Below are positions 53,733 to 56,016 of a stretch of 64,000 nucleotides of DNA, one piece after another. This DNA is from Sphingobacterium athyrii (GTDB taxonomy: Bacteria > Bacteroidota > Bacteroidia > Sphingobacteriales > Sphingobacteriaceae): NCBI RefSeq assembly GCF_003071065.1, contig NZ_QCXX01000001.1, positions 1,422,971 to 1,486,970 on the forward strand, given 5' to 3'. Position 1 is the stretch's first letter, and each line of letters begins with the position of its first letter. Below the pieces are notes generated by a model. That model had not been told where the DNA came from and did no database searches. It saw nothing but the letters and a program-made list of their open reading frames with translations. A program made the translations under genes and the position numbers.

Positions 53733-54060
53733 TTTTCAATCAATTTTAAACAAAAGAGTAAAATCAGCCAAAAACAGAAGCAAAGTGGAAATATTAGGAC
53801 CGCACAGGAATTTCCATCCGCAGCAGATTCAGATCCGTGCAAACTGAGGAGTTATAAAAATATGAGTAAGCTATCATGCTGATGGCGCCTTCTATGCATC
53901 TGACGTCCATGAGCAGACCATCTATACCCTGCATATCAGGCGGTGGCCGACTATCTATTGAAAAAATAAAATTAAGATTTCCAAAAATGTTTCTCTGATC
54001 GGACTGACGGTAACAAAGCCTATTAAAAAAAAATAAAACAACTACAAAACAGACAGTTAT
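53733..54060. other. Intergenic region upstream of efflux operon and BlaI gene
   Basis: About 330 bases between divergent units. Short frames are present but none resembles a known protein strongly enough to call. Promoters for the OMF operon must lie here. Confidence 0.4.
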
Positions 54061-54124
54061 AGTTTATCAACTTATTTTTCAGTTTTAAAACTGAAAAATA
54101 AGTTGATAAACTGAAAAATAAGTT
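54061..54124. promoter_or_regulatory. Triple 16-bp repeat operator with a 52-bp palindrome
   Basis: AACTTATTTTTCAGTT at 54069-54084, its reverse complement AACTGAAAAATAAGTT at 54089-54104, and a second identical copy at 54109-54124: three sites exactly 20 bp apart, the first inverted. The first two form part of a perfect 52-bp palindrome (54061-54112). The array ends 13 bases before the BlaI-type ATG, so repressor binding would block transcription. It differs from the TACA/TGTA-type Bla operators of Gram-positive bacteria. Confidence 0.8.
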
Positions 54125-54137
54125 ATAGCTTTAAACT

Positions 54138-54509
54138 ATGGAAGAATTAACAAAAAAAGAAGAAGAGGTTATGCATGCTATATGGAAATTAAAGCAGGCC
54201 TTTGTCAAAGATATCATTGAATATATGGATCCAGCACAAACGACTCCCTATAATACCATATCATCCATTGTACGGATTTTAGAGAAAAAAGGGTATGTGG
54301 GTTTCAATGCCTACGGGAAGACTTATCAATATTATCCGCTCATCTCCAAGATGCAGTACCGAAAGTTTTTCTTTTCTCGCGTGATGAACAAATATTTTGA
54401 TGATTCTGTCGAAAATTTGGTTTCATTCATTGTAAAAGAACAACAGATCAGCGAAACTGACATCGAGAAAATCAAGGAAATTATCAATAAAAGTAAAGAA
54501 GATGAATAA
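54138..54509 (+). CDS. BlaI/MecI-family repressor
   Basis: A 123-residue winged-helix repressor: L-T-K-K-E-E-E-V-M-H-A-I-W-K-L, then T-P-Y-N-T-I-S-S-I-V-R-I-L-E-K-K-G-Y-V and a C-terminal dimer region with the usual S-F-I-V-K-E-Q-Q-I-S-E. It likely binds the 16-bp repeats just upstream and is inactivated by the M56 protease encoded next, whose ATG lies 8 bases before its stop. Confidence 0.95.
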   Translation: MEELTKKEEEVMHAIWKLKQAFVKDIIEYMDPAQTTPYNTISSIVRILEKKGYVGFNAYGKTYQYYPLISKMQYRKFFFSRVMNKYFDDSVENLVSFIVKEQQISETDIEKIKEIINKSKEDE

Positions 54510-55971
54510 CCTATTTTCCTATAGCATAGAGGCCAATGTCAGTTTGCTTATTTTAGTCTCGCTGTTTGTCTTGGCTTTTCGGCAGCTTTCATTTTTTCGT
54601 TTGAACCGATTTTTGCTTATTGCATTGGTTAGCTTCTGTAGCGTAGTTCCCTTTCTTAAATTTAAGACCGATTATGTCGATTTAAACGATCCCAAAACAA
54701 AGTCAAATCAGGAGATAGCGTTACAAGAGCAGTTAAGCAATTCCAATACGCCTCTTTTGATCGAGTCCGAACAACAACCCAACCTATGGGACAAGTTGGA
54801 GTTAAAAAAAATACTCGCTTATGCTTATCTACTGATCGCAGTCTTCTTTCTGATACGATTAGTTTATCGGTGCTTAAAGCTCGCATTCCGCTTAAAGAAA
54901 ATGGATTTTCAGGTGCATCAGGGAATTAAAGTGATTCAACCGTTTAATCAATTCAATAATTGTTCGATCTTTCATTACATCGTGATGGATAAAAACGCAA
55001 TTGAAAGTCATGAAGGCAAGCTCATCTTTGCCCATGAGGCACAGCATATTTTGAAAGGGCATGCCTGCGACAAATTATACATCGAATTGATGTGCTGCTT
55101 TTTCTGGATAAACCCCGCCATTTACTGGGTTCGGAAAGAACTGCACCGCCTACATGAGTTTCAGGTCGACCGTGCAGTGGGCGAATGCTATGGAAAGACC
55201 GATTATGCAAGCTTCCTGCTGAATCTGACACAACAACATCAACAATTAGATTATATGCAAAGTAGAATTTTAAAAAACCAAAATGAATTGGTAGAACGCA
55301 TCGACAGGTTGATGCGAAATCTATCGCCACGCACGAAAGGTTATCAGTATCTGCTGTTTGTTCCCTGTATATTCGTGTTAATTGTCTCTTTTTCTTTTAT
55401 TAATCCCCCAAAAGAAAAAATCACTGCGCTCACTGCTGTTAAAAACGGTGTAAAGACCATTGTGCTGGATCCGGGACATGGCGGCAAAGATAATGGCGCC
55501 ACCAACAGCAAAGGCCTGAAAGAGAAAGATCTTACGTTACAGGCTTGTAAGATGATTCAAAATGAACTTGAAAAAGAAGGTTTTCAAGTTGTATTAACCC
55601 ATTCGAAAGACGAATTTATGATGCTCAAAGACCGCGCGGCATTTACCGGCGATGCCTTGGTTTCCATTCATTTCGATGTCGATCCTTCAAACACAAAACT
55701 GCCAATCGGCTTATTTTATCCAAAAGCCGTTGAGCTCCCGAAGATACAGGATCAAAGTCGGGAATTCGCATTCCGTCTCACACAAAATTTAAAAAATCAA
55801 GGATTGAGTACGCAGAAACCAGTTGAAAGCCATAGTCACGCTATCCTACGGGGAGCAAAAATACCTGCGCTCATTGTCAGCTTGGGGAATATAAATACAT
55901 TTTCCGACACATTGGACCCGCAATTTATCAGCGCTTTCGCCAAAGCAATAAAAACCTCTCTGTCGGAATAG
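54502..55971 (+). CDS. BlaR1-like M56 protease fused to a degenerate Amidase_3 domain
   Basis: A 489-residue membrane protein. Residues about 1-310 are the BlaR1 core: three N-terminal helices, the zinc motif H178-E-A-Q-H182 in F-A-H-E-A-Q-H-I-L-K-G-H and a fourth helix (about 288-307). Residues 316-489 are an Amidase_3 fold (N-acetylmuramoyl-L-alanine amidase), in place of the usual penicillin-binding sensor. Zinc ligands H326 (D-P-G-H-G-G), E341 (K-E-K-D) and H390 (S-I-H-F-D) remain, but the catalytic Glu of the P-A-x-L-V-E-x-G motif is S460 (P-A-L-I-V-S-L-G). So it probably binds, but does not cut, cell-wall fragments. It overlaps the BlaI gene by 8 bases. Confidence 0.92.
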   Translation: MNNLFSYSIEANVSLLILVSLFVLAFRQLSFFRLNRFLLIALVSFCSVVPFLKFKTDYVDLNDPKTKSNQEIALQEQLSNSNTPLLIESEQQPNLWDKLELKKILAYAYLLIAVFFLIRLVYRCLKLAFRLKKMDFQVHQGIKVIQPFNQFNNCSIFHYIVMDKNAIESHEGKLIFAHEAQHILKGHACDKLYIELMCCFFWINPAIYWVRKELHRLHEFQVDRAVGECYGKTDYASFLLNLTQQHQQLDYMQSRILKNQNELVERIDRLMRNLSPRTKGYQYLLFVPCIFVLIVSFSFINPPKEKITALTAVKNGVKTIVLDPGHGGKDNGATNSKGLKEKDLTLQACKMIQNELEKEGFQVVLTHSKDEFMMLKDRAAFTGDALVSIHFDVDPSNTKLPIGLFYPKAVELPKIQDQSREFAFRLTQNLKNQGLSTQKPVESHSHAILRGAKIPALIVSLGNINTFSDTLDPQFISAFAKAIKTSLSE

Positions 55972-56016
55972 TTTTTTGTAAAACTATCCGTTAATTCTTT
56001 TTACAAAGATTCCAAA

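Follow-up and report, generated by a model that had tools for sequence, protein, structure and literature searches.

A BlaR1-BlaI-type module of Sphingobacterium with an amidase domain lacking the catalytic glutamate as its predicted sensor

The BlaR1 receptor carries a sensor domain related to class D beta-lactamases and has its autocleavage site at Ser283-Phe284 (PMC9834060). In B. licheniformis, a peptidoglycan dipeptide serves as a co-inducer of BlaI/MecI, linking wall breakdown products to control by BlaI (PMC3305447). For receptors in which an M56 peptidase is fused to an Amidase_3 domain, we found no paper in the open-access literature, which speaks only weakly for novelty; the closest mention concerns M23-M56 architectures (a remark in PMC9662197). 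Here we describe such a fusion and its partner repressor in a 64,000-nucleotide stretch of DNA (the window) from a Sphingobacterium genome of 6.85 Mb, with the features collected in Table 1. Our leading reading, which we hold with about even confidence from sequence comparison, is that the two genes form a self-regulating module of the BlaR1-BlaI type, whose sensor is an amidase that binds its substrate and does not cut it.

Table 1. Features of the type A module and of the type B paralogue; positions are those of the window unless a locus or contig is named
Feature	Position	Strand	Basis or remark
Predicted operator box 1, AACTTATTTTTCAGTT	54069..54084	+	Exact 16-bp box, 20-bp phased
Predicted operator box 2, same 16-mer inverted	54089..54104	-	With box 1 a perfect 36-bp palindrome
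Predicted operator box 3, AACTTATTTTTCAGTT inverted	54109..54124	-	Its end lies 13 bp upstream of the blaI start codon
blaI-type repressor, 123 aa	54138..54509	+	PF03965, 105.6 bits; MecI structures, E 1e-11
M56-Amidase_3 receptor, 489 aa	54502..55971	+	ORF and Pfam
Predicted TM1-TM3, residues 8-26, 34-52, 104-122	54523..54867	+	Hydropathy; BlaR1 profile alignment
M56 protease core, H178-E-x-x-H182 to E219-x-x-x-D223	55033..55170	+	Motifs, PF05569
Predicted last transmembrane helix, residues 283-301, leading into the sensor	55348..55404	+	Hydropathy
Amidase_3 sensor domain, residues 316-489	55447..55968	+	PF01520, AlphaFold2, LytH match
Zinc ligand His326	55477..55479	+	Alignment with fusions and phage amidases
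Zinc ligand Glu341	55522-55524	+	Alignment with fusions and phage amidases
Zinc ligand His390	55669-55671	+	Alignment with fusions and phage amidases
Ser460 (AGC), position of the catalytic Glu	55879..55881	+	Alignments
Type A-only segment (operators, blaI, receptor), insert	53955..56013, approximate	.	Flanks in relatives
Type B paralogue, window's genome	L071 6278-8186 = C15:204286-206185		Boxes, blaI, receptor, barrel

Both halves of the receptor are recognized by Pfam above the respective cut-offs: Peptidase_M56 (PF05569) at residues 166-268 (42.9 bits, cut-off 31) and Amidase_3 (PF01520) at residues 320-485 (102.3 bits, cut-off 27). The key positions of H178-EAQ-H182 and of the third-ligand motif H218-E219-FQV-D223 are invariant in 20 diverse relatives, and the ORF coordinates and M56 core residues that had been read from the letters alone proved correct. 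Hydropathy gives four helices and, at 192-210, a fifth segment that is weaker. The loop at 27-37 is positive and predicted to be cytoplasmic, and that at 54-102, between TM2 and TM3, is acidic. Over the membrane and M56 half, a profile of the fusion family matches residues 4-324 of the cryo-EM structure of BlaR1 (8exp) at E 3.8e-9. Hydropathy and loop charges fit the BlaR1 arrangement, with the protease inside and the C-terminal domain outside. Because the full-length AlphaFold model was poor (pLDDT 58) and was discarded, the topology rests on hydropathy and the BlaR1 alignment, which predict a periplasmic Amidase_3 domain, as the earlier proposal of a non-cytoplasmic sensor had it. According to Pfam, the C-terminal half holds an Amidase_3 domain only and no penicillin-binding sensor, in agreement with the idea that sensing here is unrelated to penicillin acylation, and the receptor scores 12.1 bits against the NCBIfam model blaR1_generic, below its cut-off of 400.

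An AlphaFold2 model of the Amidase_3 domain, built from an alignment of type A orthologues (defined below) and phage amidases, shows a confident amidase fold (pLDDT 93.1), with LytH (7tj4, TM-score 0.79), CwlV, CwlD and AmiC among the best Foldseek matches; profile search and structure prediction thus both support the domain assignment. Its zinc ligands, H326, E341 and H390, are invariant in 20 fusions and in 51 aligned sequences, and in the alignments with LytH and 4rn7 Ser460 takes the place of the Glu of their last core strand. Together with the fusion and phage alignments, this confirms the central observation of the sequence-only reading, that all three ligands are kept and that serine stands for the catalytic glutamate.

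This substitution is restricted to one group of orthologues, which we call type A: we found seven, including that of the window, at 75-91% identity and in one clade, and Ser460 is present in all seven when read directly, encoded by AGC or AGT. Among 75 distinct M56-Amidase_3 domains, sampled from Sphingobacteriaceae and a few other families with some identical domains collapsed, 62 retain the full catalytic set H-E-H-E, three have Asp at the position, two Ile or Val together with His390Gln, one His and seven Ser, one of these seven serine reads (L069, G308) arising artefactually from a frameshift in a type B gene. These fusion counts are lower bounds, as they come from sampled genomes with three candidates scored per genome in the profile search, and from mechanical gene calls. 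Serine occurs at the catalytic position in none of the 68 other distinct domains. In a 73-row tree, the serine group is a single clade (support 100/100) within a Sphingobacterium clade, the other half of which, type B, has Glu or Asp; the change from Glu to Ser therefore arose once and was then fixed. By alignment, the catalytic site is altered independently in other lineages, to Asp, to Ile or Val with His390Gln, and to His. The survey thus upholds a serine change fixed in one Sphingobacterium clade, and does not bear out an architecture that as such is built on a dead amidase.

Two further variants deserve mention in their own right. In L012 and L014 (G212 and G197), the second M56-Amidase_3 receptors, which combine Gln for the third zinc ligand with Ile or Val for the Glu, adjoin another M56-Amidase_3 receptor in which the catalytic set is complete. 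In L111 (G007), the fusion with His at the Glu position has neither a barrel gene nor AACT-N8-AGTT, and a ACTACATTCGTAGTA palindrome is found instead.

How much is lost with the glutamate can be gauged from characterized amidases. In CwlD, replacement of the corresponding residue (E199A) gives no complementation while the protein and its partner complex stay intact (PMC8496864), and for AmiA of B. anthracis, E486 is given in a list of residues essential for activity (PMC5430687). Every phage Amidase_3 domain that covers the site in an alignment with the window's domain and its orthologues has Glu (43 of 43). We infer that the type A domain is without amidase activity, a loss that would hang on one residue. 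That it is instead still an active amidase, using another carboxylate such as Asp392 or working slowly without Glu, so that the receptor would both cut the wall and signal, seems to us distinctly improbable. All zinc ligands are present, the related receptors of type B carry Glu or Asp at this position, and Asp392, which stands beside His390 in place of the usual Asn in both types, could conceivably take part in catalysis; however, type B proteins with Glu have Asp392 as well, so that it is not a compensating change, and the requirement for Glu in CwlD, its listing as essential in AmiA and its retention throughout the phage amidases and in most fusions all argue against activity.

Within the receptor, selective constraint is strongest on the altered domain. 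Across the seven type A genes, the median dN/dS is 0.081 for the amidase domain, 0.154 for the M56 domain, 0.192 for the last helix and linker and 0.245 for the N-terminal helices (pairwise Nei-Gojobori estimates, approximate for such close relatives, with a clear ranking); 77% of the amidase positions are invariant, including the stretches round all zinc ligands and Ser460, and none of the type A genes has a frameshift. As its dN/dS is the lowest of the protein, the domain is not decaying, and the strong purifying selection on it fits a retained binding function. Intact or Asp versions in the sister clade might suggest that the serine marks a decaying domain without function, but with a dN/dS of this order, a serine shared by seven species and no disrupted genes, we rejected this explanation as scarcely credible.

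A retained binding function could also be that of an anchor or partner-binding module, through which the receptor is tied to the sacculus or an activator protein, with the signal sensed elsewhere, for example by the partner or by the periplasmic loop. Protein partners commonly control Amidase_3 proteins (LytH with ActH, CwlD with GerS and AmiB with EnvC; PMC8496864), and both the LytH-ActH and the AmiB-EnvC complexes are in the list of Foldseek matches. We nevertheless consider this reading unlikely, as the constraint covers the zinc and active-site segments and not surfaces alone, and as no conserved partner gene is present at the type A loci.

In the usual Sphingobacteriaceae layout, blaI is followed by the M56-Amidase_3 gene, often by a second M56 gene, and then by an outer-membrane barrel gene of the OMP_b-brl_3 family (PF14905), which is kept in most type B loci and absent from type A loci. 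The type A module belongs in this fusion family by its two-part architecture, its blaI partner and its phased operator. The window's genome also holds a type B paralogue, with three phased boxes (one of them with one mismatch), blaI, a receptor with Asp at the catalytic position and an OMP_b-brl_3 gene; type B is missing from the six other type A species. Immediately 5' of the type B blaI gene there is a conserved gene resembling L-Ala-D/L-Glu epimerase, an enzyme of muropeptide recycling; the copy at L071 8358-9455 is an enolase-superfamily gene that falls below the NCBIfam cut-offs.

The coupled repressor proposed from the sequence was recovered by its BlaI profile at the expected place, directly upstream of the receptor gene, whose start it overlaps by 8 bp, and blaI sits directly 5' of the fusion gene in nearly all readable related loci. 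Across the wider fusion family, an NSF motif aligns with the BlaR1 autocleavage site, and all repressors compared have an SF that an ungapped alignment places one residue away from the MecI/BlaI cleavage site, so that Ser96-Phe97 of the window's BlaI lies close to that site. Type A receptors lack the Ser-Phe pair of the autocleavage site, with Leu257 at the Phe position in all of them, whereas type B and most relatives keep Phe. We take the NSF and SF motifs as hints only of BlaR1/BlaI-like cleavage; by analogy, BlaI would be cleaved by the receptor's M56 protease.

Three exact copies of a 16-bp palindrome (AACT-N8-AGTT), with a phasing of exactly 20 bp, make up the predicted operator. At least one such palindrome lies within 160 bp before blaI in 38 of 42 related loci, compared with 0.26 loci in base shuffles, and a pair phased at exactly 20 bp occurs in 29 of the 42 (base shuffles, 0.000 loci). 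A motif search for the regulon, as envisaged by the sequence-only reading, found this operator at blaI; in those genomes searched that carry type A only, the phased pair with the exact core is confined to the module, so that the two genes appear to regulate only themselves and no target beyond them emerged. A system with itself as its only visible target would be odd for a damage response, and more degenerate type A targets are possible, being compatible with the operator search. A one-mismatch site, ATCTTATTTTTCAGTT, which might have pointed to a wider regulon, lies inside a response-regulator gene or other coding region and was dismissed as a chance match. Only two phased AACT-N8-AGTT pairs with other cores are found in the window's genome, at C15:111803-111838 (near an M56 gene, L005) and C14:1805-1840, and are probably operators of other BlaI/M56 modules. 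Separately, a phased palindrome, AACTAAAGAAATAGTT / AACTATTTCTTTAGTT, is highly conserved in most Sphingobacterium genomes searched (L308, L310, L312; G283, G313, G316).

In the window's genome, the exact box is found at two loci only, the type A blaI promoter and, on contig C15, the region ahead of the type B paralogue. The two repressors there are 72% identical and differ by a single I/V exchange in the putative recognition segment, and type A accordingly appears, from these sites, to regulate both itself and the type B operon. The shared box and the near-identical recognition segments could also mean that type A is a modulator of type B, a pseudo-receptor or a repressor reservoir that tunes the barrel operon; but type A is under strong constraint also in six other species, which have no type B, and we give this explanation very little weight.

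Around the module, relatives provide the reference state. In the window, the module is an insert between the TolC/EmrA/EmrB operon and the DUF3050 gene; in five relatives the two neighbours are separated by a short gap only and the module is absent, and the divergent efflux operon, considered as a target, is therefore backbone and not output. At 53802-53954 there are pieces of a PF00144 serine-hydrolase gene (class C beta-lactamase-like) that is whole beside the locus in relatives such as G313 and G178. A tblastn search for plasmid spread gave no match at E 1e-20.

Under our leading reading, BlaI dimers on the three phased boxes would hold down the blaI-receptor promoter in the resting state. 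Four helices of the receptor would span the membrane, with the M56 zinc protease in the cytoplasm and the Amidase_3 domain in the periplasm; as the zinc and the substrate pocket are kept and the general-base Glu is lost, a stem peptide or muropeptide should be bound at the zinc uncut, which would parallel the capture of a beta-lactam by the beta-lactamase-like domain of BlaR1. On binding, the last helix and the periplasmic loop would move, and the protease, thereby set free, would cleave BlaI, so that the level of receptor rises and, in the window's genome, that of the type B operon with its outer-membrane barrel protein rises too, through the same operator. The ligand, the direction of the signal and the coupling between sensor and protease are inferred here; the need for Glu in catalysis, the cleavage of BlaI by M56 and the substrate class, the amide between MurNAc and L-Ala, follow from known families.

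With an amidase-like domain outside and its key catalytic residue replaced, the sensor probably detects cell-wall fragments and not penicillin. The cell-wall-damage sensor of the sequence-only reading thus stands as regards the BlaR1-type receptor, the Amidase_3 sensor, the loss of Glu with the ligands kept and the BlaI partner, and has to be narrowed in that the dead site is not general to the fusions. Because most relatives keep Glu, a dead site is not required for sensing in the family; because most members look catalytically intact, cutting either belongs to normal sensing or is a distinct task, which type A has dropped. More tentatively, and with somewhat more doubt than conviction, we suggest that M56-Amidase_3 proteins are widespread receptors of Bacteroidota that read peptidoglycan fragments and relay them by BlaI cleavage, most of them cutting the ligand, with type A and a few other lineages having separately become non-cutting.

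If these readings are true, BlaR1-type signalling is not just a device of antibiotic resistance: a relay in Bacteroidota would use a peptidoglycan amidase as its input domain, giving a Gram-negative cell a direct means to watch its own wall. Types B and A would then be natural pairs of catalytic and non-catalytic sensors for asking whether sensing needs cutting, and the predicted operator offers a ready reporter for finding the signal.

Compared with known systems, the type A module shares with BlaR1/MecR1 and BlaI/MecI of Staphylococcus and Bacillus a four-TM M56 receptor with HExxH...ExxxD, a repressor of the same family, an operator upstream of the repressor gene and a sensor related to an enzyme family targeted to the wall. 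It differs in having Amidase_3 as its sensor in place of a penicillin-binding, class D beta-lactamase-like domain, in its AACT-N8-AGTT operator phased at 20 bp, and in having no beta-lactamase or PBP2a target gene. The dipeptide of B. licheniformis binds the repressor in the cytoplasm, whereas our reading of type A would place the ligand at the outside domain of the receptor. Other Sphingobacteriaceae M56-Amidase_3 fusions have the same architecture, repressor and operator; unlike most of them, type A has Ser460 and Leu at the autocleavage-site Phe, and has neither the second M56 gene nor the barrel gene. Mycobacterial CwlM is likewise an Amidase_3 protein with altered catalytic residues and a regulatory role (PMC5430687, PMC6180346). 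In CwlM, however, both His ligands are changed and Glu is replaced by Asp, and the protein acts on MurA/MurJ, whereas in type A none of the zinc ligands has changed and the domain is part of a protease receptor. The active enzymes LytH, CwlD and CwlV share the fold and the zinc site with type A, but have Glu at the catalytic position and no attached protease receptor. The peptidoglycan-recognition proteins of animals are derived from amidases that lost catalysis and became receptors of wall fragments; they differ from type A in their Amidase_2-type fold, in the loss of a zinc ligand and in their unrelated signalling, and the fusion receptors, if our reading holds, would be their bacterial counterpart.
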